Positions 451-61,398 of a stretch of 64,000 nucleotides of DNA are shown here, one piece after another (within the stretch, counting starts at the first letter, position 1; every line of letters starts with the position of its first letter). The notes under the pieces were generated by a model. It saw only the letters and a list, made by a program, of their open reading frames with translations, was not told the DNA's origin and ran no database searches. The stretch comes from Dokdonia sp. PRO95 (GTDB lineage Bacteria; Bacteroidota; Bacteroidia; Flavobacteriales; Flavobacteriaceae). The stretch is taken from the NCBI RefSeq assembly GCF_000355805.1, contig NZ_CM001837.1, positions 3,171,966 through 3,235,965 on the forward strand, written 5' to 3'. The position numbers and the translations under genes are program-made.

Positions 451-462
451 CTTTCGCGAAAA
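451..462. repeat. Imperfect copy of the TTTCGCGAAA palindrome
   Basis: The sequence CTTTCGCGAAAA matches the core of the GCTTTCGCGAAAGC motif but has lost the outer GC on both sides. It lies just after the SDR stop codon. Confidence 0.6.
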
Positions 463-641
463 TGTGCTTGTTAAAAACACATTTTTAAGCGCTTCGCTCT
501 CTATGCCAATTCATTATATATTTAGATCGAATAAACGGGAACAGATTTTAAAACGAATCAGGAGTTCCTTTAGCTATTAGGAAGGGTATTTCTTTTATAT
601 CATGGGCTATAGTACATAAATTTGAGAAAAATATCAAAAAT

Positions 642-1028
642 ATGAAGGTACACGTTTTTTTAGGAGAGTTTAAAACTAGAAAAGACGCTACATCATATAC
701 TGAATCATATTGGGAACCTGAACCTGATGAATCTGTATCTGATAGAGATTACGAAATATGGGAAAATAGTAATCCAAAATGGAAAATGAAATCTGATTTA
801 AACTGTTATTTGGATGGAGATTTTATTGAAACAATTACTGAGGGTAACAAATTTGAATATCTATGTGGAATGATACAAAACCCAGAAAGCATAAAACATT
901 TAAAAACAGAACTAAACAAGAAAGTACTTGTTTTAATATTTGAAAAGGGAATAAATAGTCAAAAATCTAAATTAAAATCAACTGAGGTTTTAGAATATAT
1001 AGGAGTTTTTGAAAGTACTTTGAAATAA
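642..1028 (+). CDS. Imm22-like putative immunity protein
   Basis: This 128-residue acidic, soluble protein has no signal peptide or membrane segment. The start MKVHVFLGEFKT, the run of W/E/P residues near 24-50 (including WENSNPKWKMKSDL) and the YLDGDFIETI block near 56-65 resemble, from memory, the immunity-22 family of polymorphic toxin systems. I could not run a profile search. No toxin, Rhs or secretion gene is adjacent, so if the family call is right it is an orphan immunity gene. It is more AT-rich than its neighbours and stands alone between two non-coding stretches of about 200 bases, which would fit acquisition. It could instead be an unrelated hypothetical protein. Confidence 0.5.
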   Translation: MKVHVFLGEFKTRKDATSYTESYWEPEPDESVSDRDYEIWENSNPKWKMKSDLNCYLDGDFIETITEGNKFEYLCGMIQNPESIKHLKTELNKKVLVLIFEKGINSQKSKLKSTEVLEYIGVFESTLK

Positions 1029-1194
1029 AACATCCGTTAGACTACATATCCACACTCCAACCCTGCTAGAGCTTAGCTAATTTCAAACTTTAAATAATAT
1101 AGGTTTACCCTTATAACAAGTAACGGCTTCCTTAAAAAGATTACACATAACTCCAAATAATACTAGTATGTTGCTGTAACCTTTCTTCATTATT

Positions 1195-1207
1195 CTTTCG
1201 CGAAAGC
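1195..1207. repeat. Near-perfect copy of the GCTTTCGCGAAAGC palindrome
   Basis: The copy reads CTTTCGCGAAAGC and only the first G of the 14-mer is changed. It is intergenic, 35 bases before the next start codon. Confidence 0.75.
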
Positions 1208-1241
1208 TTACTTTTCATATATTAGTAGCTAACAATCAACC

Positions 1242-1613
1242 ATGCTAGCACCCATACTCACTTTCTGGAAGTCCTTATCATACACTACCAGATTCTCCAT
1301 CATAGCTTTTGTAGCAATACTTCCTATGGGACTCTTTAGTATGGGAATTCTAGGAGCGTTACTGTATTATCCCGTTTCATTCTTATTTACCTCCTATCCC
1401 ACCCTTAATGATTGGACAGGCGATTGGGTATGGCCAGCAACTATAGGTGTTGGGATGTTTTGGTCTTTTGGCTTTATCTGGGCTGGACTTGCTTGGCACT
1501 TTCTAAGCAACAAACTACATTCTGTACATATTCTGAGAGTTATATATGCGATTATATGTTGGGCGTGGGCTGCAGTATTATGGTATGGAGTGATAAATAC
1601 TAACCTGTCGTAA
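1242..1613 (+). CDS. Hypothetical membrane protein with three helices
   Basis: This 123-residue protein is not recognised. It shows three hydrophobic segments, at about residues 17-47, 62-86 and 95-117, rich in W, F and G, and no catalytic motif. The start ATG at 1242 precedes a short polar N-terminus (MLAPILTFWKSLSYTTR). It is alone on its strand segment, and an imperfect palindrome copy lies upstream at 1195. A shadow ORF in another frame (from 1412) lacks any family-like features and was discarded. Function unknown; inner-membrane location is inferred from hydrophobicity only. Confidence 0.6.
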   Translation: MLAPILTFWKSLSYTTRFSIIAFVAILPMGLFSMGILGALLYYPVSFLFTSYPTLNDWTGDWVWPATIGVGMFWSFGFIWAGLAWHFLSNKLHSVHILRVIYAIICWAWAAVLWYGVINTNLS

Positions 1614-1680
1614 CGATATCATTTTCTGGAGTTTTGATTTTGTGTATCTTAGAAGCTACCAACCAAAATGTTAGACTTTA

Positions 1681-3114
1681 ATGAAAAAATTGACACTCCT
1701 CTACGTTTTGAGTATAATCACGCTAAGCGTCTCTGCTCAAAAACTATCAAAAAACAAACAAGCAGTAATTGCCTCTGTTGAAAAACATGAAAAAGAACTC
1801 ATCCGCATTTCTGATGAGATATGGTCTATCGCCGAGACTGCTTTTGAAGAAACCCAGTCGGCTGAAATTCTTGCAAGTTATGCTGAGAAAAATGGATTTA
1901 AAGTAGATCGTGGCGTTGCAGGAATGCCTACAGCTTTTGTTGCTACGTATGGATCTGGAAGCCCTCTAATTAGTGTTTTGGGAGAGTTTGATGCACTGCC
2001 AGGACTTTCTCAAAAAACTGAGCCAACAAAGAATCCGCTTAACGAAGGCGAGCCTGGTCATGGCTGTGGTCACAATATGTTTGGCGCAGCGAGTTTAGGT
2101 GCTGCCATTGCCATTAAAGAACAAATAGAAGCCGGAAAAATCAAAGGAACCGTAAAATTTATGGGAACACCTTCTGAAGAAAAGTTCTTTGGGAAAATAT
2201 GGATGGTGCGTGAAGGTCTCTGGGATGATGTAGATGTAAATATTTCTTGGCACCCAGCAGCAGAAATGAAAGCAGATGTACAAAGCTCTCTCGCGCTGGT
2301 AGATTTTAAAATAGAATTCTTTGGTCAAGCAGCACACGCCAGTGCAGACCCATGGAATGGACGCTCTGCCTCTGATGCGCTTGAAATTTACACAACAGGT
2401 GTAAACTATTATCGTGAGCACGTAAAGCCTACCGTGCGCATGCATTACCACATACAAGATGGTGGTCAAGTGGTAAATGTAGTTCCAGATTACTCGCGTC
2501 TATGGATGCGAGTGCGCGACACAGAACGTAAAGGGATGATGCCCGTGTATGAACGCTTACAAGAAATGGTAGAGGGCGCGGCCATCCTTGCCGATGTAGA
2601 TTATAAAGTGTCTCTTATTTCTGGGATTTATGAAGTACTCGTCAATAGAACTGGTGGAGCAGTAATGCAAAACAATCTTGAGCTTCTAGGACCTATTAAT
2701 TATACGCCAGAAGAAATTGCCTTTGGTAAAAAAATTCAAGAAGTAACTGGAAAGCCTCAGGTAGGTATGGATAGCACTATCAAACCACTTGAAGCGACTA
2801 GAGAAAATCCAGGTGGCGGTAGTACAGATGTAGGTGATGTGAGCTGGAATGTAGCAAATATTAACCTTGGCGTTACCACTGCTCCTAAGGATACACCGTG
2901 GCACTCATGGGCTGTCGTGGCTTGTGGAGGGATGTCTATTGGTCATAAAGGAATGACATATGCTAGTAAAGCAATGAGCATGACGATGCTTGATCTTTTT
3001 GAAGATCCTACGCTTGTAAACGAAGTTAAAGCAGAATATAAGGAACGTAAAGGCGATGCCGTGTACGAAGCGATTGTACCAGCAGGACCACCGCCAGTAA
3101 ACCAAGGAAAATAA
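1681..3114 (+). CDS. Exported M20 family amidohydrolase (AbgB-like)
   Basis: This zinc-dependent M20 hydrolase is of the aminobenzoyl-glutamate hydrolase/amidohydrolase type and cleaves amide bonds of small N-acyl compounds. Residues 1-20 form a Sec signal peptide ending SVSAQ, so it acts outside the cytoplasm. Metal-site signatures are GEFDALPG near 101-108, GHGCGHN with H127 and H131, and the carboxylate pair TPSEE near 163-167. The dimerisation domain lies in the middle (DFKIEFFGQAAHASADPWNGRSA). Its 477 residues are normal for the group. The TAA stop overlaps the next ATG by one base (TAATG), implying translational coupling with the VOC lipoprotein. The substrate is not predictable from sequence. 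Confidence 0.9.
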   Translation: MKKLTLLYVLSIITLSVSAQKLSKNKQAVIASVEKHEKELIRISDEIWSIAETAFEETQSAEILASYAEKNGFKVDRGVAGMPTAFVATYGSGSPLISVLGEFDALPGLSQKTEPTKNPLNEGEPGHGCGHNMFGAASLGAAIAIKEQIEAGKIKGTVKFMGTPSEEKFFGKIWMVREGLWDDVDVNISWHPAAEMKADVQSSLALVDFKIEFFGQAAHASADPWNGRSASDALEIYTTGVNYYREHVKPTVRMHYHIQDGGQVVNVVPDYSRLWMRVRDTERKGMMPVYERLQEMVEGAAILADVDYKVSLISGIYEVLVNRTGGAVMQNNLELLGPINYTPEEIAFGKKIQEVTGKPQVGMDSTIKPLEATRENPGGGSTDVGDVSWNVANINLGVTTAPKDTPWHSWAVVACGGMSIGHKGMTYASKAMSMTMLDLFEDPTLVNEVKAEYKERKGDAVYEAIVPAGPPPVNQGK

Positions 3115-3623
3115 TGATGACTAATAAATTATTTACAAACGCAGTAGCTCTTACAGTTACTGCGTTATGTTTTTTCTCATGTGCAGAAAAAACAAGTACA
3201 ACACCCACTAATCTAGACTCAGCGTCAGGATTTCAAGTTGCGATAGATCATTATGCGATTAACGTAGCAGATCTGGATGAAAGTGTGGCTTTTTATCAAG
3301 AGGTCTTTGGTTTGAAGGAAATTAAAGATGGTACAGAGGAGCCGCATATAAGATGGTTTAGACTAGGATCATCGCAAGAATTACATATTATTCAAGTAGA
3401 TAGTCTTGATAAGAAAATACCTAAAGGAGTTCACATAGCCCTTGCTGTAGGTGATTTTGACCGCTTTCGCGAAAGCATAGAAAAACGAAACCTCAACTAC
3501 TACGACTGGCCAGGAAGTGCTAACCAAATTTCAACACGTCCAGATAAAGTACGCCAACTATACTTCCAAGATCCAGATGGATATTGGGTCGAAGTAAATG
3601 ATGGGAAGCAGTTTAATCATTAA
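3114..3623 (+). CDS. VOC-domain lipoprotein
   Basis: This is a glyoxalase/bleomycin-resistance-fold (VOC) protein with a lipoprotein signal. Hydrophobic residues 8-20 are followed by lipobox FFSC, giving lipidated C23. The VOC domain spans about 43-163, with family-typical DHYAINVADLDESVAFYQEVFGL, H91 and the terminal DPDGYWVEVND; H46, H91 and E160 are plausible metal ligands. The start could be either of two tandem ATGs, 3114 or 3117. A perfect GCTTTCGCGAAAGC copy is read here as F118-R-E-S121, in a helix between the two beta-alpha repeats. It is second in a three-gene operon with the M20 hydrolase and SnoaL-like protein. Enzymatic role unknown. Confidence 0.88.
   Translation: MMTNKLFTNAVALTVTALCFFSCAEKTSTTPTNLDSASGFQVAIDHYAINVADLDESVAFYQEVFGLKEIKDGTEEPHIRWFRLGSSQELHIIQVDSLDKKIPKGVHIALAVGDFDRFRESIEKRNLNYYDWPGSANQISTRPDKVRQLYFQDPDGYWVEVNDGKQFNH
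3463..3476. repeat. GCTTTCGCGAAAGC palindrome, FRES frame
   Basis: An exact 14-base palindrome inside the VOC lipoprotein gene. It is the only in-gene copy read in the frame giving F-R-E-S. Confidence 0.95.
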
Positions 3624-5750: not shown

Positions 5751-5764
5751 GCTTTCGCGAAAGC
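5751..5764. repeat. GCTTTCGCGAAAGC palindrome, intergenic
   Basis: An exact copy within a 20-base perfect palindrome, TACGCTTTCGCGAAAGCGTA, in the gap between the ABC-F gene and the CarboxypepD_reg gene. Confidence 0.95.
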
Positions 5765-9320: not shown

Positions 9321-10730
9321 ATGGAAAATTCTTATGATTTTGGCTTGGTTGGACTGGGCGTAATGGGACGTAACTTTATATTAAATGTAGCCGATAATGG
9401 CTTTAGCGCGATGGGCAATGACCTTGACCCAGAAAAAGTACAAGCGCTTATTGAGGAAGGCGGCGACCCAAAACGCGTAGATGCGACGGTTGATGTATCC
9501 GCTTTCGCGAAAGCGTTATCATCCCCACGTAAAATCATGCTACTAGTACCCGCAGGTAAAGTAGTAGACATCGTCATAGAAAGTTTACTACCACACTTAG
9601 ATAAAGGAGATATCATTATAGACGGAGGAAACTCCTTCTTTACAGATACCGACCGAAGAGAAGCTTACTTATCTGAAAAAGGAATTCACTTTTTTGGAGC
9701 AGGAGTTTCTGGAGGAGCAAAAGGCGCACGTATAGGACCTAGCATCATGCCTGGAGGATCAAAACCAGGATATGCAGCAGTTCAACCCATTTTTGAAGCA
9801 GTATCTGCCAAATATAATGGAGAACCTTGTGTTGCTTACTTAGGACCTAAATCTGCTGGTAACTATGTAAAAATGGTGCACAACGGAATTGAGTACGGAC
9901 TTATGCAACTTACTTCTGAGATATACGACGTGCTTAAAAAGGCAGGAAACTTATCTAATCAAGAACTTCACGAAACCTATAAATCATGGAATGAAGGGCG
10001 TTTACAATCCTTCTTAGTTGAGATTACATCAGAAATTTTTGCCGAAAAGGACACTCTTACTAGTGGTGACCTTGTAGACCAGATTCTTGATAAAGCAAAA
10101 CAAAAAGGAACAGGAAAATGGACCTCACAAAATGCGATGGACCTAGGTATTCCCGTACCTTCTATTGATATCGCTGTGAGTATGAGAGAAATCTCTGCAC
10201 TTAAAGATGAGCGTACCATTGCAGATTCTCTTTACGATCGCCCAGAAGTGGCAACAATGGATAAAGAAAAGCTGACTAAGCTTACAGAAGAAGCACTTTA
10301 CTTCTCTTACATCATTACTTATGCTCAAGGTTTGCATCAGCTAGCAGACGCGTCTAAGGAATATGGATATGACCTCGATATTGCGGTAATTGCAAAAATA
10401 TGGAGAGCTGGATGTATTATAAGAGCAAAGCTCCTTGCAGATATCACAGATGCTTTTACAGAAGACACAGAACTACCTAACCTTTTATTATCTCCATCGT
10501 TTATCAAGAAGATACAAAGCACGGTAGACTCGGCTAGAGAACTTGTTGCTTATGGAGCTATTAATGGAATCCCGCTTCCTGGAGTATCAAACTCGTTAAC
10601 GTATTTTGACGCATATACTTCTACGAGATTACCACTTAATCTTATACAAGCACAACGAGATTATTTTGGATCTCACACCTACGAAAGATTAGACCGCGAG
10701 GGAATCTTCCATACAGAATGGGAGAAATAA
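9321..10730 (+). CDS. gnd: 6-phosphogluconate dehydrogenase, decarboxylating
   Basis: Converts 6-phosphogluconate to ribulose-5-phosphate and CO2 with NADP+. The Rossmann motif GLGVMGRN lies at 11-18. IIDGGNSFFTDT, GVSGGAKGARIGPSIMPGG and KMVHNGIEYGLMQL are the family signatures, including the catalytic Lys (YVKMVHNG) region. I chose the ATG at 9321 (469 residues, like E. coli Gnd) over an upstream GTG at 9300. A perfect window palindrome is read as A61-F-A-K-A65, where other Gnd proteins have a variable helix before the PRKIMLLVPAG strand. It is divergent from zwf-pgl, completing the oxidative branch. Confidence 0.96.
   Translation: MENSYDFGLVGLGVMGRNFILNVADNGFSAMGNDLDPEKVQALIEEGGDPKRVDATVDVSAFAKALSSPRKIMLLVPAGKVVDIVIESLLPHLDKGDIIIDGGNSFFTDTDRREAYLSEKGIHFFGAGVSGGAKGARIGPSIMPGGSKPGYAAVQPIFEAVSAKYNGEPCVAYLGPKSAGNYVKMVHNGIEYGLMQLTSEIYDVLKKAGNLSNQELHETYKSWNEGRLQSFLVEITSEIFAEKDTLTSGDLVDQILDKAKQKGTGKWTSQNAMDLGIPVPSIDIAVSMREISALKDERTIADSLYDRPEVATMDKEKLTKLTEEALYFSYIITYAQGLHQLADASKEYGYDLDIAVIAKIWRAGCIIRAKLLADITDAFTEDTELPNLLLSPSFIKKIQSTVDSARELVAYGAINGIPLPGVSNSLTYFDAYTSTRLPLNLIQAQRDYFGSHTYERLDREGIFHTEWEK
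9501..9514. repeat. GCTTTCGCGAAAGC palindrome, AFAKA frame
   Basis: An exact copy inside gnd. Its flanks (CC before, GTTATCATC after) match the flanks of the copies at 28524 and 49538 beyond the palindrome. Confidence 0.95.
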
Positions 10731-12427: not shown

Positions 12428-12441
12428 GCTTTCGCGAAAGC
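12428..12441. repeat. GCTTTCGCGAAAGC palindrome, intergenic
   Basis: An exact copy within the 20-base palindrome TACGCTTTCGCGAAAGCGTA. It fills most of the short gap between the peptide-binding lipoprotein stop and the yigZ-like coding region. Confidence 0.95.
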
Positions 12442-16904: not shown

Positions 16905-19900
16905 TTAGTTTGCTATTTTTTGTTCTTCCTCTAGTCTCAGTAAAGCTTGGCGGTATTCTTCTGGTAGCACTTTCGTGAAATTACCTATTTCCACATCCCA
17001 ATTTTCTAGGAAACGTTGTGCTAGTGGAGATTGTGTTGCATTATAATGGTTCTCAACCAACTGTCTAAGCTCCTCTCGGTCTTGTGTTTCTTCTACCTTT
17101 AAGAAGTTTAAGCCCTCTGAGTTTGCTTTTCGCGAAAGCGTACTATCTACATCATACACATATGCGATTCCTCCGCTCATTCCAGCTCCGAAGTTTCTTC
17201 CCACAGCTCCTAAAATCACTGCTACTCCTCCTGTCATATACTCACAACCATGATCACCTATACCTTCTACAACAGCTCTAGCTCCCGAGTTACGTACACA
17301 AAAACGCTCTCCAGCCTTTCCATTGATGTAAGCCTCCCCAGCAGTGGCACCGTAAAATGCTACGTTTCCAATAATGACATTATCTTCAGGAATTATGGTT
17401 GCCTCTACAGGTACTTTTACAATAACTTTTGCTCCAGAAAGCCCTTTGCCTATGTAGTCATTTGTATTTCCAGTAACCGAAAGCGTCAATCCATGAGTAG
17501 CAAATGCCGCAAAGCTCTGACCAGCCGAACCTTCAAAATTGATTTTTAAGGTATTTTCTGGTAGCCCATTAACTCCATAAATTTTTGAAATCTCATTACT
17601 TAAGATGGCTCCTACCGCTCGGTCTTCATTTGTAATCTTAAGATCAAGCGTTGTCTTTTCTTTTCTAAACAATGCAGGGTGCGCCTGAGATATAATTTTA
17701 AAATCTAATGCCTTTTCTAGATCATGGTCTTGCTTCTCGATATTTCTCAGGGATTGCCCTTCCTTAACATCTACTTTATGCAGAATAGGAGTTAAATCTA
17801 ATCCTAAAGCTTTGTATTGATCAATGGTCTTGTTGCGGTCTAGCTTTTGCACTTGCCCTACCATCTCATCTACTGTCTTAAAACCGAGCTTTGCCATAAT
17901 CTCACGAAGCTCTTGCGCAACGAAATACATGAAGTTTACCACATGCTCCGGTTTTCCATTAAATCGCTTACGTAGCTCTGGGTTTTGCGTTGCAATTCCC
18001 ACAGGACAAGTATTTAAGTGACACACACGCATCATTATACAGCCAGAAGCCACTAGCGGTGCAGATGCAAAACCAAATTCTTCTGCCCCTAGAAGACATG
18101 CAATTGCTACGTCTCTACCTGTTTTAAGTTGGCCATCGCACTCTAGTCTCACACGGCCACGCAAATCATTCATAACGAGTGTTTGCTGCGCTTCGGCTAG
18201 CCCTAGCTCCCACGGAAGTCCCGTATGTTTTAATGAAGTAAGTGGCGTTGCACCAGTCCCTCCATCATGTCCAGAAATTAATATCACATCTGCCTTAGCT
18301 TTTGCAACACCTGCGGCCACAGTCCCTACCCCTACTTCTGACACTAATTTTACATTAATACGCGCCTCTCTATTTGCAGATTTTAAATCATAAATTAATT
18401 GTGATAAATCTTCAATAGAGTAAATATCATGATGCGGTGGTGGAGAAATCAATCCTACATATGGTGTAGAGTTACGCGTTTTTGCAATTTCTGGATTCAC
18501 CTTAGGGCCTGGCAACTGCCCTCCTTCTCCAGGTTTTGCGCCCTGCGCCATTTTTATTTGAATCTCTGCTGCATTAGTTAGATAATTTGAGGTAACGCCA
18601 AATCGTCCAGAAGCTACTTGCTTAATTGCACTATTTTTCCAATCACCGTTTACATCTTTATAAAAACGCTCTTGATTTTCTCCTCCTTCGCCAGAATTTG
18701 ATTTACCGTCTATACGATTCATCGCTACAGCTAGTGTCTCATGCGCTTCTTTACTGATAGATCCATAAGACATTGCTCCCGTTTTAAAACGTTTTACAAT
18801 ATCCGTCCAAGGCTCTACTTCATCTATATCTATAGGATCATAATTTGTAAACTCAAACAAGCCTCTAATAGTCATTAGTTGTTTAGCTTGATTATTTACT
18901 CGATCTGCATACTCTTTATAGATTACAGGTTTATTACTTCGTACAGATTCTTGAAGTTTTGCAATCGTAAGCGGATTAAATAAATGCGCTTCACCATCTC
19001 TTCTCCATCTATACTCACCACCTATTTCTAGTGGCAAATCTGCAGCAATTTCTTTTTTATCATATGCAGCTTTATGACGCTTACTTATTTCTCCTTCTAG
19101 TTGATGCAATCCTACACCCTCAATTCTAGTCACTGTGCGCGGAAAGTATTTTGAAACTACTTTTTTACTGATGCCTATACATTCAAATAGTTGCGAACTG
19201 CGATATGAATTGAGTGTAGAAATACCAATCTTATTCATCACCTTGAGCACTCCCTTACCTACAGCCTTATTAAAGTTTTGAATAGCTTCTTCTACATCTA
19301 CACTAGCAAGCTCAAGATCTTCTGGGTGATTTTCTATAATCTCATTTACCATATAAGGGTTAATCGCGCTCGCGCCATAACCAAATAATAACGCAAAATG
19401 ATGCACCTCTCTAGGCTCTGCAGACTCAATAATTAAACTTAATTGAGATCTCTTCTTATGAGTTGCTAGTCCGTTGTTTACATAAGAGCAGGCAAGCAAT
19501 GCTGGTATAGGTGCCTCTGTAATTGACGTATTTCTATCTGATAGAATAACAATATTTGCTCCCTCATCAAGCTGCTTACTTACGTTTTGCAAGAGTTTTT
19601 CTAGTGCTTCCTCGAGGCCATTATGACCTCTCTCCACCTGATACAACATCGGTACAGAAACTACTTTAAAATTCTTATCATCAAGACTTTTAATCTTATC
19701 TAAATCTTGTTTTGATATAACTGGATTTTGGATTTTCAACTTTCTACAATGCGCAGCATTAATGTCAAAAATATTATAATCGGCTCCTAGGGTTAGAGAA
19801 ATATCTGTAATCAACTCTTCTCTTATTCCATCAAGAGGCGGATTTGTAACCTGAGCAAATAACTGCTTGAAGTAGTTATAAATGAGCTGCGGCCTTTCTG

Positions 19901-24623: not shown

Positions 24624-24637
24624 GCTTTCGCGAAAGC
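24624..24637. repeat. GCTTTCGCGAAAGC palindrome, intergenic
   Basis: An exact copy between the amt terminator and the LMW phosphatase start, 26 bases before the ATG. Confidence 0.95.
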
Positions 24638-34688: not shown

Positions 34689-35038
34689 AGTTAAGAGTTG
34701 TTTTATGTGTTCTGATCATTATCAGGAATAGACTAAAAAACTGTAATATGTGTACGCTTTCGCGAAAGCAAAACGTAACATTTACACCTCCCCAAAGTTA
34801 AGTTTCTTCCCTAAAGATAACGTCAGAAATCTTTGTTAATTATATCAAGTTGTGAAAAGGATTTTAACATATCAAAAGATTAATTCAAAAAGCAAAACAA
34901 TTAAAATAGAACCACCTGCCTGTAAGCAGATTAAAAGTTCATGTATGCTTTTTTGATTTTGACATCATACAACAGCCATCAACACATAATATTCCTGCAT
35001 ATCTTTGTAATGTTCAGGACAAAAAAAAGGAAACATCT
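34689..35038. promoter_or_regulatory. 350-base divergent intergenic region
   Basis: This gap separates the TPR gene from the pirin gene. It holds an exact palindrome at 34756, a small CTGAT-N4-ATCAG repeat (34712-34725), and a TATCTTTG element (35000-35007) that fits TAnnTTTG upstream of the pirin gene. No ORF of note is seen. Confidence 0.4.
34756..34769. repeat. GCTTTCGCGAAAGC palindrome, intergenic
   Basis: An exact copy with TAC on the left side, between the divergent TPR and pirin genes. Confidence 0.95.
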
Positions 35039-36052: not shown

Positions 36053-36063
36053 TGCTGTCACAT

Positions 36064-36075
36064 TTTCGCGAAAGC
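36064..36075. repeat. Imperfect palindrome copy, intergenic
   Basis: TTTCGCGAAAGC keeps the right half and centre of the motif, but the left GC is AT. It lies 12 bases after the pirin stop codon. Confidence 0.7.
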
Positions 36076-43935: not shown

Positions 43936-45129
43936 TTACGAAATAACTCCAGAACCTAAGCACTCTTCTCCATGATGCCATGCCACAAACTGACCTTCGG
44001 CTATGGCGGTCTGAGGATTATCAAAAATCACATACATACCACCTTCTACTCTATAAAGTGTTGCTTTTTCTAGTGGCTGTCTATAGCGTATCCTTGCTTC
44101 TACTTCCATAGTTTCATCTATAGCAAGCGTGAGATCTTCTCGTATCCAGTGTATTTCTTCCTCTTTTACAAAGAGCCCTTTGCGGTATAATCCTCTGTGA
44201 TTTTTCCCTTGACCTGTGTAAATTACATTTTCATTTACGTCTGTATCTATCACAAAAAGAGGCTCTACAGTGCCACCCACTGCAAGTCCCTTGCGCTGGC
44301 CTATTGTGAAGTAATGTGCTCCTTGGTGCTTACCTACTACTTTCCCTTCGGCTACGCTGTATGTTGGTTTTTTTACAAGGTTTTCTAAGTCCGCTTTCGC
44401 GAAAGCGTTACTAGCCTCCATACCACCTGCAACTTCTGGAATAGTATCTTCCATCACCTCAACAATAACACCTTCCTTAGGTTTCAACTGTTGTTGTAAA
44501 AAGTCTGGCAATCGTACTTTACCTATAAAACAAAGTCCTTGAGAATCCTTTTTTCCTGCAGTCACGAGGTCTTGTTCTAGAGCAATCTCGCGCACTTTAG
44601 GTTTTTGTAAATGACCTATTGGAAACAAGGTTTTTGCCAATTGCTCTTGCGATAACTGACATAAAAAATAGGATTGATCTTTATTATTATCTGCCCCAGC
44701 TTTAAGCTGATAGATAGTCTTACCGTCTACTTCTATCGATGTTTTTTGACAATAATGTCCAGTAGCTACAAAGTCTGCACCGAGTGAAAGTGCAATTTTC
44801 ATAAACACATCAAACTTGATCTCCCGATTACAAAGAACATCTGGATTAGGAGTGCGTCCCATCTCATATTCTTTAAACATATAGTTTACGATACGCTCTC
44901 TGTATTGCTCGCTTAGGTCAACTGTTTGAAATGGAATTCCTAACTTTTCGGCCACGAGCATTGCGTCATTGCTATCATCTAGCCAAGGACACTCATCAGA
45001 TATCGTTACAGAATCATCGTGCCAGTTCTTCATAAAAAGACCTATCACGTTGTATCCTTGCTCCTTTAATAAGTGAGCCGTAACACTACTATCTACTCCA
45101 CCACTAAGACCTACTACTACCGTTTTCAT
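43936..45129 (-). CDS. mnmA: tRNA-specific 2-thiouridylase
   Basis: Makes the 2-thio group of the wobble uridine in tRNA Lys, Glu and Gln. ATP-binding [10 protein letters not shown] lies near 7-16, the catalytic cysteine in [12 protein letters not shown] near 103, and the second in [10 protein letters not shown] near 195. The central/beta-barrel domain has [16 protein letters not shown]. Length 397 includes a Bacteroidota-type insert before that block, and the exact palindrome falls in this insert as A242-F-A-K-A246 ([12 protein letters not shown]). It is downstream of the subtilase region on the same strand by about 40 bases; no functional link is apparent. Confidence 0.96.
44393..44406. repeat. 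GCTTTCGCGAAAGC palindrome, AFAKA frame
   Basis: An exact copy inside mnmA. On the coding strand it is flanked by GTAAC before and GGA after, close to the flanks at 9501, 28524 and 49538. Confidence 0.95.
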
Positions 45130-47580: not shown

Positions 47581-47594
47581 GCTTTCGCGAAAGC
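47581..47594. repeat. GCTTTCGCGAAAGC palindrome, intergenic
   Basis: An exact copy in an 18-base palindrome, 9 bases beyond the second terminator and before the dipeptidyl peptidase stop. Confidence 0.95.
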
Positions 47595-47607: not shown

Positions 47608-49632
47608 TTAATCTAAATGACCGTATTTGCTAGAATAATCAAGCATTTGATTTTCGAAGCTTTCTGGTTGCTCTATAGTAAAGCCAGTAATTTTCTCACC
47701 TTCCATTTGCGGAACGATTACAGGATTTACAAAACCACTGTAAGGTGCGCTTTTAAACTGGCTATTACGATCAAGTACTTCCTTATGTATGTCCTGATCT
47801 ACTTTTACACCATAATTCTCTACAAGTGCCTTTGCAGCTTCATAATCACCTTCTGAAGTGATGCGCTGTGTCTCTCTCAGTAATTCTCCAAAGATTGCAC
47901 GAAGTTTCTTGTAATCTGTGATATTAAAGTAAGTCTTACCATCACGAGTTACTTTCTCAATTACATTCTCATTTGCACCACGCTCAAAAGCCCAAGCACT
48001 AACCCACTGACGATTAACCATATGCGCTTCTTCTACATTATCTCCTAGCTCAAGGCGTATAAGTTGCGTCATCAAACCATTACGGATGTAGCCATCATAA
48101 GCAGCCATTCCTGTTTTTTCCCAGTCTTCTACTAATCCAATTTCTTGAAGTTTTGGATCCATAAGATAGTATAGCCCAAAAAGATCTGCGCGTCCTTCTT
48201 CTATAGTAGATTTGTAACGTTTAAGTGTTTCCTTAGGAGTTCCTACTCCTTTATTAATCTGTCCAGAGGCATGACCTACTACTTCATGTAAAGCTGTGTG
48301 TAACTTATCGCCTAATTGTCCATATTGCTCTTCTAATGCTATCTCCTCTTCGTCATGTGCAAACTCTTTAAGACGTCCAGATCCACCAGCGTTGTTGTAA
48401 GCATTGATTATGTTACCTAGAGAAACCGATTTACTACCATGCGTCTGGCGTATCCAGTTATTGTTAGGCAAGTTTACACCTATAGGCGTAGATGGTGAGG
48501 CATCTCCTGCTTCTCCTGCTACAATCACTGTTTTGTAAGACACTCCTTTTACTTCCTTCTTCTTATGCTCTGGCATTAATGGTGAGTTATCCTCAAACCA
48601 TTGTGCATCTACAGATAGTGCTGCCATCTTTTTTGACATATCAAAATCTTTAATTTGAACTATAGTCTCATAAGAACCTTTATACCCTTTTGGGTCATTG
48701 TAAACTTCTATAAATCCGTTAATCCAATCTATATTTCCTTCTGTAGAAGTTGCCCAAGCGATACAGTAATCATCCCAAGTATCGAGGCTTCCTGTCTTGT
48801 AATATTCAATAAGCAGTCCTAAAGCTTTTCCTTGCTGCTCATTTTCGGCAACGGTTTGGGCTTTTTCTAACCAACCGATTATATTATCTATAGCCTCGCC
48901 ATATAATCCTCCACTCTTGTACACTTGTTCTACAAGCTTACCGTCTTCTTTTACAAGGCGCGTGTTGAGTCCTTTTTCTATAGGCTCATTTTCATCTACT
49001 TTAATCGCATCATAAAATGCTTCTGCCTCTGCTGTAGTTACATCTGGGCCATAAAAGTTAATCGCGCTTTCTAGTACGATATCAACATCTTTGGCTAGGT
49101 TTACTTTCTTGCTATCCTTATCATTAAAGAGTACTTCAAAAGCTTCTCCTTCTAATGTTGCTCCACTTTCGGTAAGTAGTTGTTTCAAGTAATCCTGAGA
49201 AAAATCAGGTTTCATCTTAGCATTACTGTAATGATGGTGTATACCGTTTGCAAACCATACACGCTTCATGAATGTTTCAAACTGCTCCCACTCTTCTCCG
49301 GTTTTTGAAACCTTGTCAGATGTATAAATTGTCTCCAGAGCGTTTCTAATCTCAAGATTGTGACGGTAATTTTGAGCCCACATGATATCACGTCCAGCAA
49401 GTCCTGCCTGTGTCATGTAGTACACCAGCTTTTGCTCTTTAAGTGTTAGGTCTTCAAAACCTGGTATCTGGTAACGTAATATCTTGATATCGGCAAACTG
49501 GCCTACTGTAAAATCAAAATCTGTTGTTGTTGTTTCCGCTTTCGCGAAAGCGTTATCATCTTTCTTTTCTTCTCCACATCCTACTGCGAGAACCGCTGCA
49601 ATTGCTAGCGTATATATTCCTTTGTAACTCAT
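47608..49632 (-). CDS. Dipeptidyl peptidase III (M49) lipoprotein
   Basis: This zinc metallopeptidase removes dipeptides from peptide N-termini. The M49 zinc motif is HEVVGHASGQ (HExxxH) and the third ligand lies in TIEEGRADLFGLYYLMD (EExxAD-like). The lipoprotein signal ends VGC with C19. Immediately after the anchor the exact palindrome is read as A28-F-A-K-A32 within the flexible linker (EEKKDDNAFAKAETTT). Length 674 is within the bacterial M49 range. It is oriented against the fasciclin gene with two back-to-back terminators. It probably processes peptides at the cell envelope. Confidence 0.93.
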   Translation of the reverse strand: MSYKGIYTLAIAAVLAVGCGEEKKDDNAFAKAETTTTDFDFTVGQFADIKILRYQIPGFEDLTLKEQKLVYYMTQAGLAGRDIMWAQNYRHNLEIRNALETIYTSDKVSKTGEEWEQFETFMKRVWFANGIHHHYSNAKMKPDFSQDYLKQLLTESGATLEGEAFEVLFNDKDSKKVNLAKDVDIVLESAINFYGPDVTTAEAEAFYDAIKVDENEPIEKGLNTRLVKEDGKLVEQVYKSGGLYGEAIDNIIGWLEKAQTVAENEQQGKALGLLIEYYKTGSLDTWDDYCIAWATSTEGNIDWINGFIEVYNDPKGYKGSYETIVQIKDFDMSKKMAALSVDAQWFEDNSPLMPEHKKKEVKGVSYKTVIVAGEAGDASPSTPIGVNLPNNNWIRQTHGSKSVSLGNIINAYNNAGGSGRLKEFAHDEEEIALEEQYGQLGDKLHTALHEVVGHASGQINKGVGTPKETLKRYKSTIEEGRADLFGLYYLMDPKLQEIGLVEDWEKTGMAAYDGYIRNGLMTQLIRLELGDNVEEAHMVNRQWVSAWAFERGANENVIEKVTRDGKTYFNITDYKKLRAIFGELLRETQRITSEGDYEAAKALVENYGVKVDQDIHKEVLDRNSQFKSAPYSGFVNPVIVPQMEGEKITGFTIEQPESFENQMLDYSSKYGHLD
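49538..49551. repeat. GCTTTCGCGAAAGC palindrome, AFAKA frame
   Basis: An exact copy in the dipeptidyl peptidase gene. With its flanks (GATGATAAC before, GGA after on the coding strand) it matches the copy in gnd over about 26 bases. Confidence 0.95.
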
Positions 49633-51680: not shown

Positions 51681-52391
51681 ATGGCAAAAGAGGTAGATAT
51701 TTTTGGGGCTGCGCTCCAGGATTTTATTGATAACAAGTACACAGAAGATATCGTGGTGCACTCCTCTATTGCAGAAGATGATGTAATCCCCGTTCCTTAC
51801 TTATTTAGGCCATTTGAAGAGATGCCAGCCATAGAGCAACGAGCATTATCACTTTCTAAGGGTGCCATACTTGACATAGGCAGTGGCGCTGGCAGCCATA
51901 GTTTATGGTTACAAGAACAAGGTCTTGATGTTACTGGAATAGATATAAGTGAGGGTGCTGTTACGCTTTCGCGAAAGCGTGGTTTACAAAAAGCCGTAAA
52001 CTCTAATATTCTAGAACATAAAGGCAGCTACGATACTCTTTTATTACTCATGAATGGCACTGGAATTTTTGAACGTATATCAAAAATAGACAGCTATTTA
52101 CAACATCTTAAAACATTACTCAACAAAGATGGGCAGATACTTATAGACGGATCAGACATTGCATTTATGTTTGAGGACGAAGATGGAGGTTTCTGGATGG
52201 ATACACATCGTGATTACTATGGAGAAGTAACATACTCGATGAGCTATAAAGGAGCGCAGAGCTCTAGCTTTGACTGGCTTTATCTAGACTATGAAAGACT
52301 TGCATGGTATGCAAAAAAAAATGAGCTCAATTGTGAGCTCATTTTAGAAGGTGATCATTATGAATATTTAGCAAGGCTTAGCCTTACATAG
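51681..52391 (+). CDS. Class I SAM-dependent methyltransferase
   Basis: A 236-residue Rossmann-fold methyltransferase: motif I GAILDIGSGAGSHSLWLQEQGLDVTGIDIS (about 60-89) and post-motif DTLLLLMNGTGIFERI. No target-defining domain is present. The exact palindrome is read as L96-S-R-K99 (AVTLSRKRGLQKAV), the helix after the motif II acidic residue, where the family often has a basic helix. The 3' end overlaps the convergent DUF2059 gene by eight bases. Substrate unknown. Confidence 0.88.
   Translation: MAKEVDIFGAALQDFIDNKYTEDIVVHSSIAEDDVIPVPYLFRPFEEMPAIEQRALSLSKGAILDIGSGAGSHSLWLQEQGLDVTGIDISEGAVTLSRKRGLQKAVNSNILEHKGSYDTLLLLMNGTGIFERISKIDSYLQHLKTLLNKDGQILIDGSDIAFMFEDEDGGFWMDTHRDYYGEVTYSMSYKGAQSSSFDWLYLDYERLAWYAKKNELNCELILEGDHYEYLARLSLT
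51965..51978. repeat. GCTTTCGCGAAAGC palindrome, LSRK frame
   Basis: An exact copy in an 18-base palindrome, inside the methyltransferase gene. Confidence 0.95.
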
Positions 52392-53808: not shown

Positions 53809-55854
53809 TTATTCTTCTACAAATGGCACTTCTTCAAGTTCTAATGTATCTGTATATTTCATAAGATACACGGCATTGTTTGAAAAGCCTCCTTTAGCTC
53901 TTGTTCCATACTTGAACTTATTTTCCACATAATCTGTCTCCACACCAGTAGCTGCTGCAGCATATAAGTCTGACGAGTATGCAAGACGTAGTAGTGTGTC
54001 ATACATAACATCATAACCTCTTATTGCTGCCTCACTAGGACTTACACCATACATCGTCTCATAACTGTCAATAAAAGCCTTTGCTTTATTGTACGCATAC
54101 TCTTTTTCTACAGATGGGAAATGGAAAGCGAGATTCTTTAGGTGATCATGCTGTATCTCATCACTATCATAAGCATTACCCCTGTTTGTAGTAAACATTA
54201 CAACCTTAAGAGCACCTAACTGGCCATTAAGACTAGTAGTTACACTACTAATTAATGGCACATCATTAGTCTCTACAATTACCCAGTTTTCTAGTTCGCT
54301 AGAAAGTTGTGATGGTATATCATCTGGATATAGATAATATCCTTTATCGTTAGAACGAGGAGTTACCGTCTTAAGATTTGGAAAAATAGCTCTCAATTTT
54401 GACAATGTTGAGCTATTTTTCTTATCTGCTATTACCACGATATTTTTACCAGATCCATTAGCCTTTAAATAAGAAAGCATCTTTTTACTTAACAAGTTAT
54501 CCTCTGGTCTTGACACAAAAATGTTCTTTCTACCAGCTACCTTGTTAGACATAGGTGATATCACGGGTATGTTGCGTGCATTGAGAAGTGATGACACTCT
54601 ATCTATATTATTACCTAAAAGCGGTCCTATTACAGCATTAACCCCAGAAAAATCATTTGACTGTATAATAGTTTCTACTTTGCGTGCATTTGTTGCCGCG
54701 CCATCTTTACGATTGTATGAGGTATCATAGGTATCTACCGTAGTAGAAATACCAGCTTTTTTTGCATCTTGAACTGCCATAAGCATACCACTGTATAAGT
54801 CTAATGATAGTCTAAGAATACGATCATCTCTAAGTAAATTTTCATTTACCTCTGTATTCCCTGTATTTACACGCCCCACTCCAAAAGGAAGCATTACAGC
54901 AATACGTTTTGGTGAGAAGTCTGTTAATTGATTGAGCAAAGATCCTTTTTTACCTTCTAGAATGGTAACCTCAGGATTCCCTTGGTTTTCTGCAACGGCC
55001 TGTGTAGGCGTGCCAGATCCTGGGCTTCCCTTAGGCACTTTGAGAATCATACCTTCCTTAAGACCTTCGTCTAGTGCAGGGTTTAATGCTATCAGCTCGT
55101 CTGCTTCTAGCTTAAAAATGCGTAACAGGCTATATAGTGTATTTCCCTTCTGTACTTCATAAAAGGCATACTCATCATTATCAATGATAGTACTTTTTGC
55201 AAAATTTGCTTTAGGAACCCTAAGTTCATCCCCTATCTTTAGTCCATCTCTAAGCGACGGATTTGTACTTTCAAGCTCTGCTATAGTAATTCCATACTTT
55301 CTAGCAATTCCGTACTTAGTCTCTTTTGCAATTACATTATGCGTTATGTATGACACCTGTGTTTCTGGTAAATTTACCACCGCATCTGGCGTGCTAGCTT
55401 CTGAATAATTAACAGGTATGCGTAGCTTATCACCTTTGCGCAACACTTCGCTATATAAAGACTTATTAAAACGTTTTATCACATCTTGAGAAACGCCATA
55501 CTTTTTAGAAATGCTATAAAGTGTCTCTTTGCGCTTTACCTTGTGCGTCTTAAACTTTAAGTTGTCTTGATCAACGGTCTCTGTTTTATTTACAACAGTT
55601 GCTGTAGATGGCAAGATTAAAACTAAGCCTTCGTAAACCTCCTCACGAGCATCTGGATTGAGTCTTGTGATATCTTTTGTGGTTATACCATACTTATCGG
55701 CTATATCATTTAGTGTTTCACCAGCTTTTACTTGGTGGGAAACAAACTTTTGAACAGTAGCAGTATTGCTAGATAATGTAGCTGCTGGTGTTGAGCACGC
55801 TTTCGCGAAAGCGCTAAAAACAACAATCGCAATTACAGTAATATATTTTTTCAT
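53809..55854 (-). CDS. LysM repeat protein with periplasmic-binding-protein-like (PBP1) domain
   Basis: A 681-residue exported protein with four LysM peptidoglycan-binding repeats, about 38-82 (HQVKAGETLNDIADKYGI), 100-146 (HKVKRKETLYSISKKYGV), 168-213 and 227-272. A type 1 periplasmic-binding-fold domain follows at about 315-670 (KRIAVMLPFGVGR, NAVIGPLLGNNIDRVSSLL, IPVISPMSNK), the LppC/LivJ-like layout. The N-terminus is odd: the exact palindrome encodes A15-F-A-K-A19 directly before C20, between the hydrophobic core and what looks like an old lipobox cysteine. It follows guaA by nine bases. It probably senses or scaffolds at the peptidoglycan. Confidence 0.9.
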   Translation of the reverse strand: MKKYITVIAIVVFSAFAKACSTPAATLSSNTATVQKFVSHQVKAGETLNDIADKYGITTKDITRLNPDAREEVYEGLVLILPSTATVVNKTETVDQDNLKFKTHKVKRKETLYSISKKYGVSQDVIKRFNKSLYSEVLRKGDKLRIPVNYSEASTPDAVVNLPETQVSYITHNVIAKETKYGIARKYGITIAELESTNPSLRDGLKIGDELRVPKANFAKSTIIDNDEYAFYEVQKGNTLYSLLRIFKLEADELIALNPALDEGLKEGMILKVPKGSPGSGTPTQAVAENQGNPEVTILEGKKGSLLNQLTDFSPKRIAVMLPFGVGRVNTGNTEVNENLLRDDRILRLSLDLYSGMLMAVQDAKKAGISTTVDTYDTSYNRKDGAATNARKVETIIQSNDFSGVNAVIGPLLGNNIDRVSSLLNARNIPVISPMSNKVAGRKNIFVSRPEDNLLSKKMLSYLKANGSGKNIVVIADKKNSSTLSKLRAIFPNLKTVTPRSNDKGYYLYPDDIPSQLSSELENWVIVETNDVPLISSVTTSLNGQLGALKVVMFTTNRGNAYDSDEIQHDHLKNLAFHFPSVEKEYAYNKAKAFIDSYETMYGVSPSEAAIRGYDVMYDTLLRLAYSSDLYAAAATGVETDYVENKFKYGTRAKGGFSNNAVYLMKYTDTLELEEVPFVEE
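55799..55812. repeat. GCTTTCGCGAAAGC palindrome in a signal peptide, AFAKA frame
   Basis: An exact copy at residues 15-19 of the LysM protein, immediately before C20. Confidence 0.95.
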
Positions 55855-58901: not shown

Positions 58902-59324
58902 ATGAAAATAGTACAAGAACCTAAACTTCAACAATCTTTTGATATAAAGCGTCTTGCTTTGTACAATGAAGCTATGGATCTTTTTACGCTTTCGCGAAAG
59001 CTTTCTAAAGGAAATTTGCAACAAAGCATTTTAAACTGTCCTTCAGAAAAAGAGCTGGCCACAAACCTATCTGAGTTTATTTCGCACACAGCATTATCAC
59101 TACCCATGTCTATTGCTGAAGCCTCTATAACAGCAGACTATTCTAAAAAGCTGCACTTTCAAAAGCATATAGAAGAGCGTATTAGCCAACTTTCAAAGCT
59201 TTGCAAAAAACTAGAAATACTTTATCGTAATCGCTGTCATAGTGTACAACAGCTAGCACATACTGCTCACAAACTCGAGACAGGATTTAAAAAATGGTCT
59301 TTACAATTGACTAGACAGAACTAG
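58902..59324 (+). CDS. Four-helix-bundle protein (S23/avd-like)
   Basis: A 140-residue all-helical protein from the ATG at 58902; a TTG at 58884 would add six residues. The stretch LYNEAMDLFTLSRKLSKG followed by LSLPMSIAEASITADYSKKLHFQKHIEERISQLSKL resembles the 23S-rRNA intervening-sequence four-helix-bundle family, whose members also include Avd of diversity-generating retroelements. No reverse transcriptase or rRNA lies nearby. An exact palindrome is read as L30-S-R-K33 at the position where the family has a basic helix turn. Divergent from the Lrp-type gene. Function unknown. Confidence 0.7.
   Translation: MKIVQEPKLQQSFDIKRLALYNEAMDLFTLSRKLSKGNLQQSILNCPSEKELATNLSEFISHTALSLPMSIAEASITADYSKKLHFQKHIEERISQLSKLCKKLEILYRNRCHSVQQLAHTAHKLETGFKKWSLQLTRQN
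58988..59001. repeat. GCTTTCGCGAAAGC palindrome, LSRK frame
   Basis: An exact copy within the four-helix-bundle gene. Confidence 0.95.
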
Positions 59325-59788: not shown

Positions 59789-59809
59789 CATCATTAAAAA
59801 GTTAAATAG

Positions 59810-59843: not shown

Positions 59844-60225
59844 TTTCCACTGTTTACAAATGAAATGCTCTTAGCATTTCTTTTCCAGACAGTTTTTAAA
59901 ATGAGGGATTCATTTAGGAAACTCGTTGCATTCTATTTATCAATCTCAAATGACTCAATCCATTTGAGAACCACTATATAAATTTATATACGTTAGAAAG
60001 AATGTGTTTGGATTACTCAGCATAAAAAAAGTGCTATTCACAATTGACTTACAACTAGTTACCACCTAATCAAAAAAATATCGCTATTGAAATGTAAGCG
60101 TTGCCATAAAGCTCCGTCCAACCGAGCATAAGAATTTCAAATGATAAAGCTTTAGTGATCACTATAACCATCATGAAATTACTAAACTGATTTTTAAAAA
60201 ACATTTACGTTCAAAATCCAATACA
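59844..60225. other. 382-base intergenic region with two hairpins
   Basis: No ORF is supported here. A short hairpin GAAATGCT-N3-AGCATTTC (59862-59880) is followed by TTTT and may be a secondary terminator. A 9-bp stem TCTCAAATG/CATTTGAGA (59944-59969) with an 8-base loop has no T-run and no assigned role. The rest is AT-rich and featureless. Confidence 0.45.
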
Positions 60226-60618
60226 ATGAAAAAAATAATTTCAATTTTCGTACTTATCTTAACAGTAACTTTCTCTGCACAAGCTCAAGATAAAATGATG
60301 AAGGAGAGCTCAAACAAAGTAATCGCATTAGAGCAAACTAAAGGAGAGTTTACTCAAAAGCAAATCGTAGTAAGTGAAGGTACTTACACATTTTCAATTG
60401 CAAATAACAATGTAGGTACAGATGTAGGTTTTGTTTTAGTTCCTAAAGGAAAAGATATTTCTAATCCAGAAAATCACATCAAAACTGCTTATGTAACTGC
60501 AGTAGTACCTAACAATACGACAGGAACTTCAAACGTTACAAAACTCACTAAAGGCGAGTATGTTTACTTCTGCCCACTTAACAAGACATCTACAGACAAC
60601 GTTCTTGTAGTACAGTAA
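60226..60618 (+). CDS. Exported cupredoxin-fold-like protein
   Basis: A 130-residue periplasmic protein with signal peptide ending FSAQAQ (residue 21). The mature part is a compact beta sandwich: IVVSEGTYTFSIANNNVGTDVGFVLVPKG and LTKGEYVYFCPLNKTSTDNVLVVQ resemble the C-terminal copper loop region of cupredoxins (Y-x-C-P). The Cys is present, but I see no clear His pair or Met in the loop, so copper binding is doubtful. Monocistronic, with its own terminator. It could be a degenerate cupredoxin or an unrelated beta-sandwich protein. Confidence 0.65.
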   Translation: MKKIISIFVLILTVTFSAQAQDKMMKESSNKVIALEQTKGEFTQKQIVVSEGTYTFSIANNNVGTDVGFVLVPKGKDISNPENHIKTAYVTAVVPNNTTGTSNVTKLTKGEYVYFCPLNKTSTDNVLVVQ

Positions 60619-60635
60619 TCTATAATAAATATAGC

Positions 60636-60670
60636 AAAGCCTTGTATAATCTTATACAGGGCTTTTTTTT
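60636..60670 (+). terminator. Intrinsic terminator of the cupredoxin-like gene
   Basis: A stem of about 13 bp (60636-60648 with 60653-60665, one G-U pair), 4-base loop and T-run. Confidence 0.88.
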
Positions 60671-60673
60671 AGT

Positions 60674-60681
60674 TATTTTTG
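60674..60681 (+). promoter_or_regulatory. Candidate -7 element
   Basis: TATTTTTG fits TAnnTTTG and lies 19 bases before the ATG of the next lipoprotein gene. No good TTG is upstream, so it is weak. Confidence 0.3.
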
Positions 60682-60699
60682 TAATTCAAAAATAACACT

Positions 60700-61398
60700 A
60701 TGAAATTATACTCAATGCTTCTAGCATCTTCTCTAGTTATCTTAAGCTGTAAAGAGGAGAATACTACTTCTACAAGGGATACAAACAACTTAAAAGTTGA
60801 AGCTACATTTACACCAACCACAGAAGCAGAAAAAATTGCTTATGCAAACGGTCTTGCAAACTGGAAAGATGTAAAGCAACTTGACTTTACATTTAATGTA
60901 GATCGCAACGGCGCTACTGTAGCAAGTCGTTCATGGTCTTGGAAACCAGTCACAAATGATGTGACTATGATTGCCGCTGGAGATACTATTTCATACAATC
61001 GTGCTACCGTAGACAGCACCTCTATGCAAGCAGACCAAGGGTTTATAAATGATAAATACTGGCTTCTTGCTCCTTATCAACTTGTTTGGGATGAAGGAAC
61101 TTCAATAAAAGTAACCGATAGTGTAATGAGTCCGCTTTCGCGAAAGCAAACTAAAAAACTCACTCTTCTCTACGGAAATGAAGGAGGTTACACACCAGGA
61201 GATGCCTACGACTTTTACTACGGAGATGATTATGTAATTACCGAATGGGTTTTTAGAAAAGGAAATGCTACAGAGCCTTCTATGATTACAACTTTTGAAG
61301 GTTACAAAAATATCGAAGGGCTCTCTATAGCAACAGATCACAAGAGTGAAGATGGTAGCTTTAGGCTATACTTTACAGATGTAAACGTCATCAAATAA
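60700..61398 (+). CDS. Hypothetical lipoprotein
   Basis: A 232-residue protein with signal MKLYSMLLASSLVILSC (C17) and no recognised motif. The rest reads as mixed beta structure (QLDFTFNVDRNGATVASRSWSWKP, YVITEWVFRKGNATEPSMITTFEGY), perhaps a lipid-carrier or LolA-like half-barrel, but that is a guess. An exact palindrome is read as L146-S-R-K149 (MSPLSRKQTKKLTLLYG). The stop is one base before the next ATG, so it is coupled to the small membrane protein that follows. Confidence 0.7.
   Translation: MKLYSMLLASSLVILSCKEENTTSTRDTNNLKVEATFTPTTEAEKIAYANGLANWKDVKQLDFTFNVDRNGATVASRSWSWKPVTNDVTMIAAGDTISYNRATVDSTSMQADQGFINDKYWLLAPYQLVWDEGTSIKVTDSVMSPLSRKQTKKLTLLYGNEGGYTPGDAYDFYYGDDYVITEWVFRKGNATEPSMITTFEGYKNIEGLSIATDHKSEDGSFRLYFTDVNVIK
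61134..61147. repeat. GCTTTCGCGAAAGC palindrome, LSRK frame
   Basis: An exact copy inside the hypothetical lipoprotein gene, the last exact copy in the window. Confidence 0.95.

Follow-up and report, generated by a model that had tools for sequence, protein, structure and literature searches.

Short words repeated many times over a bacterial chromosome are known in several forms. To our knowledge, words by which DNA is recognised as self occur in few bacterial groups only, the Neisseriaceae and Pasteurellaceae. Noc, SlmA, and matS sites are palindromic, organise the chromosome, number in the tens, and show regional bias, and Chi is short and asymmetric. The Neisseria DNA uptake sequence (DUS) has been described as over-represented in the core genome and as spaced in keeping with the length of conversion tracts (PMC2397512), and for the Haemophilus uptake signal sequence (USS) a relatively even distribution has been called an expected result of molecular drive (PMC7811141); both words occur at densities of 1 per 1-1.5 kb (PMC2397512, PMC7811141). 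Cyanobacterial HIP1 (GCGATCGC) provides a further precedent, linked to methyltransferases (PMC4390886). In this work we describe a palindrome of 14 bp, GCTTTCGCGAAAGC, in a stretch of 64 kb from Dokdonia sp. PRO95, hereafter the window. We tentatively read it as a genome-wide signal for DNA self-recognition, in uptake or exchange, which is spread by biased recombination and does not depend on type IV pili; we give this reading somewhat less than even chances. A literature search of partial coverage found no published description of the 14-mer, of its palindromic 14-20 bp form, of the one-arm class described below, or of their presence in Bacteroidota.

Within the window 17 exact copies were found, all at the coordinates given in an earlier note made from the sequence of the window alone. 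Thirteen of them were located inside open reading frames (ORFs) and four between ORFs, and the genes carrying sites include gltB, gnd, lysA, and mnmA. The four near copies reported in the same note were present as well, but the quoted positions were off by 1-2 bases; they start at 450 (three mismatches), 1194 (one), 17126 (two), and 36062 (two), and a fifth at 63448 (GCTTTTGCAAAAGC) had been missed. The statement that many copies extend to ACGC...GCGT or to a 20-mer was too generous, as the flanks gave the former in 5 of the 17 exact copies and the exact 20-mer TACGC...GCGTA in 2. Matches with at most two mismatches numbered 21 in the window, compared with a mean of 0.19 in dinucleotide-preserving shuffles. 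Shuffling of synonymous codons in the window ORFs (300 shuffles, window only) gave a mean of 0.037 genic copies and a maximum of 1, compared with the real 13, and the window therefore holds more copies than a codon-aware model predicts. The genome of the window, G000 (one contig, 3,305,093 bases), contains 794 copies, i.e., approximately 1 per 4 kb, and none of the reversed control pattern, an extreme over-representation.

The distribution among genomes was narrow. All 18 Dokdonia genomes compared carried 369-905 copies, and all 23 genomes of a genus labelled g11 carried 288-857 (G-numbers denote genomes compared, L-numbers fetched stretches, and g11 and g77 genera; G401, G399, G397, G206, and G402 are Dokdonia genomes other than G000). 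At least one copy was present in 80 of the 397 genomes of a family sample, but hundreds in only six, which comprised two Dokdonia, three g11, and G190 from a third genus with 408 copies; the remaining 74 carriers had 1-19 copies and all other genomes 0. In a phylum sample of 395 genomes any copy was found in 22, and none exceeded 6 copies except G000. The genus g11 is probably Nonlabens, as a rhodopsin of its member G010 matches PDB 9jov/9jou, which we take to be a Nonlabens marinus protein, over all 216 residues searched (435 bits). Judging from the TPR protein encoded in the window, the two main carrier genera are probably not sisters, since the window copy is closer to the site-poor genera among the named matches (58-66% identity) than to g11 (51-53%). 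By the same protein, genus g77 (G076, G287) is about as near to Dokdonia as G190 is, yet has 16-19 copies per genome, and in each of the two genomes three copies lie on a copper island of the kind treated below. No alternative palindrome of 10-14 bp occurred more than three times per locus in other genera, in a screen of 80 named loci of up to 23 kb each (the best 80 of 492 confirmed; runs of N and pure A/T palindromes left out), and among those 80 the 14-mer was found only in two Dokdonia loci, L060 and L061. Exact 20-nt matches to the extended palindrome were seen in NZ_CP080583.1 and NZ_CP120517.1, two plasmids of the unrelated Weissella confusa (E 0.1; they may be due to chance).

The word is sharply defined. 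In 564 kb from seven site-rich genomes we counted 122 exact and 13 one-mismatch copies, and in 60 kb of the site-poor G076 neither form was found. Outside the 14-mer there was only a soft symmetric preference, roughly TKTMC beyond each end in Dokdonia, and in G000 a C adjoined the 14-mer in 86 of the 100 flanks. A single strand can form a hairpin (-4.9 and -7.3 kcal/mol as DNA), but this is true of any perfect palindrome and was given no weight. The commonest two-mismatch form in Dokdonia was TTTCGCGAAA with one GC arm, the two bases of the other arm being variable, and this form is a one-arm class, not random decay. Core copies in 551 kb of Dokdonia DNA were sorted into 133 two-arm, 39 one-arm, and 2 armless sites, and the one-arm share was 2 of 32 in g11 and 2 of 20 in G190. 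The 39 one-arm sites of Dokdonia lay far from two-arm sites, at a mean distance percentile of 0.73 where random placement gives 0.5, in a set which includes homologous regions of G000, G401, and G399 and whose sites are thus partly non-independent. Five large gaps were picked in G000; three contained one-arm sites and the other two none. Because of this distance and their occurrence in gaps, we infer that one-arm sites probably do the same job as full sites.

Close pairs of sites were avoided. Among the first 100 listed sites, gaps shorter than 1 kb numbered 2 in G000 (20.6 expected) and 4 in G397 (22.9 expected). With one-arm sites included, the coefficient of variation (CV) of spacing was 0.33 in the window (random 0.96), 0.58 in eight further G000 stretches (random 0.90), 0.53 in G206, 0.44 in Nonlabens, and 0.62 in G190, and each of these values fell below the random one (P 0.02 or less). 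Insertion and site-specific mismatch repair act on each site separately and therefore predict random spacing, while the short-range avoidance observed follows if one site is enough per piece or domain. Placement relative to genes was also uneven: 31 sites were intergenic in 429 kb of Dokdonia DNA, where 10.6 were expected, 15 of them within 25 bp past a stop codon, and 9 were intergenic in Nonlabens, where 2.5 were expected. Genic Dokdonia sites read in frame AFAKA in 45 of 69 cases, with mechanical ORFs. The sets used for gene placement, genome size, and bare TCGCGA omit G401 and G399, and some homologous stretches of other species remain in them.

Positions of the sites proved long-lived. 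Counting only sites with all 14 positions aligned, window sites were intact at matching places in 16 of 17 cases in G401, 11 of 13 in G399, and 5 of 6 in G397, whilst control 14-mers of equal flank identity were intact in 32, 30, and 4.3%, respectively (P 1.6e-7, 8e-5, and 8e-7). G206 and G402 are more distant, and each had one of two sites intact, with controls at 1.1 and 1.6%. Five other Dokdonia retained the site in the TPR gene, even where flank identity was as low as 71%. At this locus 23 chosen rows were aligned, and 14 of the 16 site-poor rows had Tyr where Dokdonia reads Ala, with length unchanged; site-free relatives have an ordinary codon stretch there, e.g., YFAEN vs AFAKA. Since the site-free relatives have the same length, the alignment indicates that the site at this one locus arose by in-place substitutions and changed the protein. 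The suggestion in the earlier note of a genome-wide functional site is thus backed by even spacing, by conservation far above control, and by presence in all compared members of two genera.

Copy number was nearly flat with respect to genome size in Dokdonia and less so in Nonlabens. In 12 near-complete Dokdonia (2.9-5.5 Mb) the slope was 33 sites per Mb with an intercept of 673 (rho 0.27, p 0.39), and in 19 Nonlabens (2.8-3.9 Mb) the slope was 101 sites per Mb (rho 0.23, p 0.34). These genomes, 12 of the 18 Dokdonia and 19 of the 23 Nonlabens, were at least 99% complete; their sizes were rounded, and core and accessory genes were taken together. This suggests that the additional DNA in Dokdonia is site-poor, which would be in line with the over-representation of Neisseria DUS in the core.

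Sites were also found on DNA shared between genera. Of the 74 genomes with 1-19 copies, 7 supplied twelve cluster stretches for comparison; nine of the stretches were related by blastn, while L019, L023, and L026 gave only short matches. According to Pfam, L015 and L018 encode P-type ATPases, a CusA-like pump, an outer-membrane efflux protein, and a multicopper oxidase, i.e., copper/heavy-metal resistance genes, and the idea that the clusters in site-poor genomes are conjugative elements was dropped. Close relatives of the pump were found in 28 of 34 genomes searched, including 8 Dokdonia and 10 g11 (of 12 searched in each genus) but not G000. Compared with the pump of G078, their protein identity was 79-98%, and for 18 of 27 it was 90-98%. 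Four site columns recur in 28 aligned island loci and are exact in 9, 13, 16, and 21 of them, the last column including one row (G190) with uncertain alignment near the locus end. The copper islands would thereby carry a fingerprint of site-rich hosts. Besides Dokdonia and the probable Nonlabens, several further genera of Flavobacteriaceae have the island (L015, L018, L177-L204). L019, L023, and L026, also from site-poor genomes, hold site pairs outside the copper island; the proteins encoded next to these are a mannosyltransferase, one with a guanylate-cyclase domain, and one resembling DsbD.

From these observations we infer an uptake or exchange step and a receptor for it. A putative receptor or processing protein would recognise TTTCGCGAAA if a GC arm flanks it on one side or both, and pieces of DNA bearing a site would be preferentially taken up or recombined. 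Recombination would then copy sites to homologous places and remove degraded ones, leading to about one site per 3-5 kb, and a second site near an existing one would add nothing, hence the spacing. In Neisseria and Haemophilus, biased uptake with recombination yields what is seen here, namely a sharply recognised word, few close pairs, positions that last, a copy number that is nearly flat, and sites on exchanged islands. Also in favour are the intergenic excess in Dokdonia and Nonlabens and the absence of the word from two phages recorded as Nonlabens phages. The palindrome shares with DUS and USS the many near-perfect copies, relatively even spacing, both genic and intergenic location, and perhaps a lower frequency in accessory DNA (PMC2397512, PMC7811141). 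It differs from them in being palindromic, in its one-arm class, in its density of about 1 per 4 kb, and in that most carriers tested have no pilus ATPase. By analogy it may work like DUS despite this last difference, and among the comparisons made in the earlier note the likeness to uptake sequences fits best. As a highly iterated short word the palindrome belongs to a kind already known, but it is filed neither as HIP1, some site-rich genomes having no C5 methyltransferase, nor as a classical DUS, few carriers having the pilus ATPase.

A more specific proposal, in which we place slightly less trust than in self-recognition as such, is that a single self-recognition word of 14 bp is common to Dokdonia and, probably, Nonlabens and has a pilus-independent reader, which would drive and space about 480-900 copies per genome and channel gene exchange between the two genera, including that of metal-resistance islands. 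If true, a palindromic word in marine Bacteroidota would be a new system for studies of how such words originate, how they come to be shared between distant genera, and who the partners in gene exchange are.

As to machinery, ComEC was found in all 38 genomes tested, site-rich and site-poor alike, and its presence is necessary for uptake but non-discriminating. Riemerella, which the papers cited here place in Flavobacteriaceae, relies for transformation on ComEC and DprA and also on proteins that have no homologues in the machines known so far (PMC8459023); its tonB mutants are impaired in transformation, one of them possibly through iron (PMC8383284). Riemerella columbina prefers its own DNA, and frequent k-mers of up to 10 bp have been sought there as candidate uptake words (PMC7965970). 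The genes beside comEC were considered as counterparts of the Riemerella uptake pair and rejected, being POT (peptide) transporters and a DPPIV peptidase. A thioredoxin-like protein is encoded in the same neighbourhood (L213-L227), in which the ORF layout was similar in the 15 genomes fetched and Pfam was applied to ten proteins.

Several points weigh against a signal for DNA exchange. We know of no uptake sequence that is palindromic. The pilus/type II secretion system (T2SS) ATPase PF00437 was above cut-off in 5 of 16 site-rich and 2 of 13 site-poor genomes, G000 not being among them, and its presence in so few carriers makes the classical uptake machine unlikely. No reader protein was found, neither the Riemerella DUF5689/outer-membrane pair nor ParB-like families having been searched for, and our literature search, partial in coverage, gave no paper on natural competence in Dokdonia. 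Where near relatives differ at a site, the difference looks like a point change, and the flanks are no more and no less diverged, approximately, than other DNA, a pattern which many recent Neisseria DUS do not share (PMC2397512). When G000 was compared with G401 and G399, divergence did not clearly fall towards the sites (Spearman -0.05, p 0.22 and 0.30); identity was 92% within 100 bp of a site vs about 90% elsewhere, and G397 had the opposite trend, with 76% in the nearest 100 bp vs about 79%. Even spacing was not significant in the G397 region (CV 0.77 with P 0.17, values ranging from 0.77 to 0.81), nor was it in the eight G000 stretches when two-arm sites were taken by themselves (P 0.051). 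The intergenic excess was missing in G190 (1 site vs 1.7 expected), and on the islands intact and degraded copies occurred in site-rich and site-poor hosts alike.

The main rival, which we consider less likely than uptake or exchange, is that the sites organise the chromosome: a dimeric nucleoid or segregation protein would bind every 3-5 kb, and selection would keep one site per domain. A palindrome of about 20 bp with soft edges suits a dimer, and this explanation accounts for the even spacing and the conservation as well as uptake does. Agreement extends to the preference for intergenic and post-stop positions and to the one-arm sites, which have no common orientation: the 23 in G000 were divided into 11 left and 12 right, with the origin and terminus of replication unmapped. 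Likewise, sites were present in all nine regularly placed G000 samples (224 of 3,305 kb), at 3.0-6.0 per 20 kb, and no regional bias was evident in this coarse survey with the origin unmapped. The palindrome resembles Noc, SlmA, and matS sites in symmetry, length, and scatter over the chromosome, but differs from them in its about 800 sites without evident regional bias. A copy number that hardly tracks genome size in Dokdonia is explained less well by chromosome organisation than by uptake, and site-free stretches of about 14-20 kb, with neither class of site (L162, L164, L165, and L168, chosen like the other gap regions because they were gaps), fit poorly. Occurrence in two distant genera with few or no sites in nearer ones would demand transfer of the binding protein together with hundreds of weakly selected sites, and at the TPR locus the site overrides an amino acid. 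Should chromosome organisation prove to be their role, sites in the hundreds with even spacing and a letter-perfect form would still be unusual for Bacteroidota, and the case would be easy to test. Among the site-free stretches, L164 and L165 (G397 287-321 kb, GC 0.41) are largely filled by two giant ORFs of 4,431 and 5,060 aa. A match to Flavo-1 RNA (Rfam RF01705, 45.7 bits) was noted at L161:5967-6045, in a stretch between full sites.

It is improbable that the palindrome is a Chi-like site of recombination control, which would halt a DNA-degrading helicase-nuclease and thereby allow the repair of self DNA and the destruction of foreign DNA. The density is close to that of Chi, near 1 per 4-5 kb, the absence from two phage genomes would suit, and even spacing would aid repair. 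Unlike Chi, however, the motif is long (14 bp) and symmetric, and its one-arm forms lack a common orientation.

Marginally less probable again is a HIP1-like element, which an orphan methyltransferase would both make and maintain in concert with site-specific mismatch repair. The likeness to HIP1 put forward in the earlier note holds for form, both being highly iterated palindromes spread over genes and gaps, here in hundreds of copies, and some degraded copies have C-to-T changes at the central CpGs. It does not hold for length (14-20 bp vs 8), for the even spacing, or for the enzyme, as no C5 methyltransferase was common to all site-rich genomes tested. Such enzymes were absent from 7 of 16 site-rich genomes, in a search which did not include the N6-adenine and N4-cytosine families, and a shared C5 methyltransferase as maker of the sites was rejected. 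A mutational mechanism acting per site predicts random spacing, not avoidance below 1 kb, and methyltransferase sites are not known to reach 14 bp. Bare TCGCGA outside sites was not avoided (ratio 0.90 in Dokdonia). In G000 two full-length C5 DNA methyltransferase matches lie at 2994546-2996633, apparently in one open frame of 700 aa, and the family was unmatched in G399 and G401, which are the nearest to G000 among the genomes tested.

A self-marker which spares DNA from a defence nuclease is very improbable. The word is rare in viral contigs, as only 5 IMG/VR contigs contained the 20-mer, with one or two 14-mers in the fetched part, and it is present on shared islands. On the other hand, the islands also occur in genera with few or no other sites, and two phages recorded as Nonlabens phages contained no 14-mer, 12-mer, or core in the 35 kb taken from each, though a copy would be easily gained. 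Finally, a miniature mobile element spreading by insertion, the other suggestion of the earlier note, would account for many dispersed copies but is the least probable reading of all: at the TPR gene, the one locus studied in detail, site-free relatives have the same length and there is no insertion, so that an insertion element or REP is not supported there, flanks are only softly preferred without any long conserved sequence, and spacing is non-random with avoidance over about 1 kb.

The individual sites of the window lie in unrelated genes and gaps. The first exact site (3463-3476) is located in a glyoxalase-fold ORF (3114-3623). Two intergenic sites have the 20-bp palindrome: that at 5751-5764 is degraded to GCCTTCGCAAAAGC in the close relative G401, and that at 12428-12441, 10 bp past a stop codon, is missing from G397. 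Between them, the site at 9501-9514 reads AFAKA in the 6-phosphogluconate dehydrogenase gene. Five successive sites are kept in G401, G399, and G397, i.e., those at 20965-20978 in the glutamate synthase large subunit gene, 24624-24637 at the 5' end of a low-molecular-weight phosphatase ORF, 28524-28537 in an amidohydrolase gene (absent in G206), 32368-32381 in the TPR-protein gene (AFAKA, also kept in G402 and G206), and 34756-34769 between divergent genes (absent in G402). The site at 38926-38939, in lysA (diaminopimelate decarboxylase), differs by one base in G399, and that at 44393-44406 lies in mnmA. A site between convergent genes, at 47581-47594, is 14 bp from a stop codon. Those at 49538-49551 and 55799-55812 lie near the 5' ends of a peptidase M49 gene and a LysM protein gene, respectively, the latter with two bases different in G399, and the one at 51965-51978 is in a methyltransferase-domain ORF. 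The last two, 58988-59001 and 61134-61147, fall in ORFs of 146 and 232 aa with no NCBIfam match.

One-arm sites, all on the + strand, were found at 17126-17139 (TTTCGCGAAAGC, without the left GC), where full sites are farthest apart and where G401, G399, and G397 have the same form, at 36062-36075 (kept in G401 and G399), and at 1194-1207 (one mismatch, at the first base; kept in G401). At 450-463 the core TTTCGCGAAA has both GC arms altered, and G401 has an exact site here. The degraded site GCTTTTGCAAAAGC (63448-63461) corresponds to an exact site in G401 and G399; both its central CpG steps are changed symmetrically, so that the palindrome is still perfect.

Elsewhere in G000, two genes of the rhodopsin family were present (L153, L158; 491.6 kb, 2.309 Mb); one encodes a rhodopsin that, along the entire matched length of 243 aa, matched solved sodium-pump rhodopsins (514 bits).

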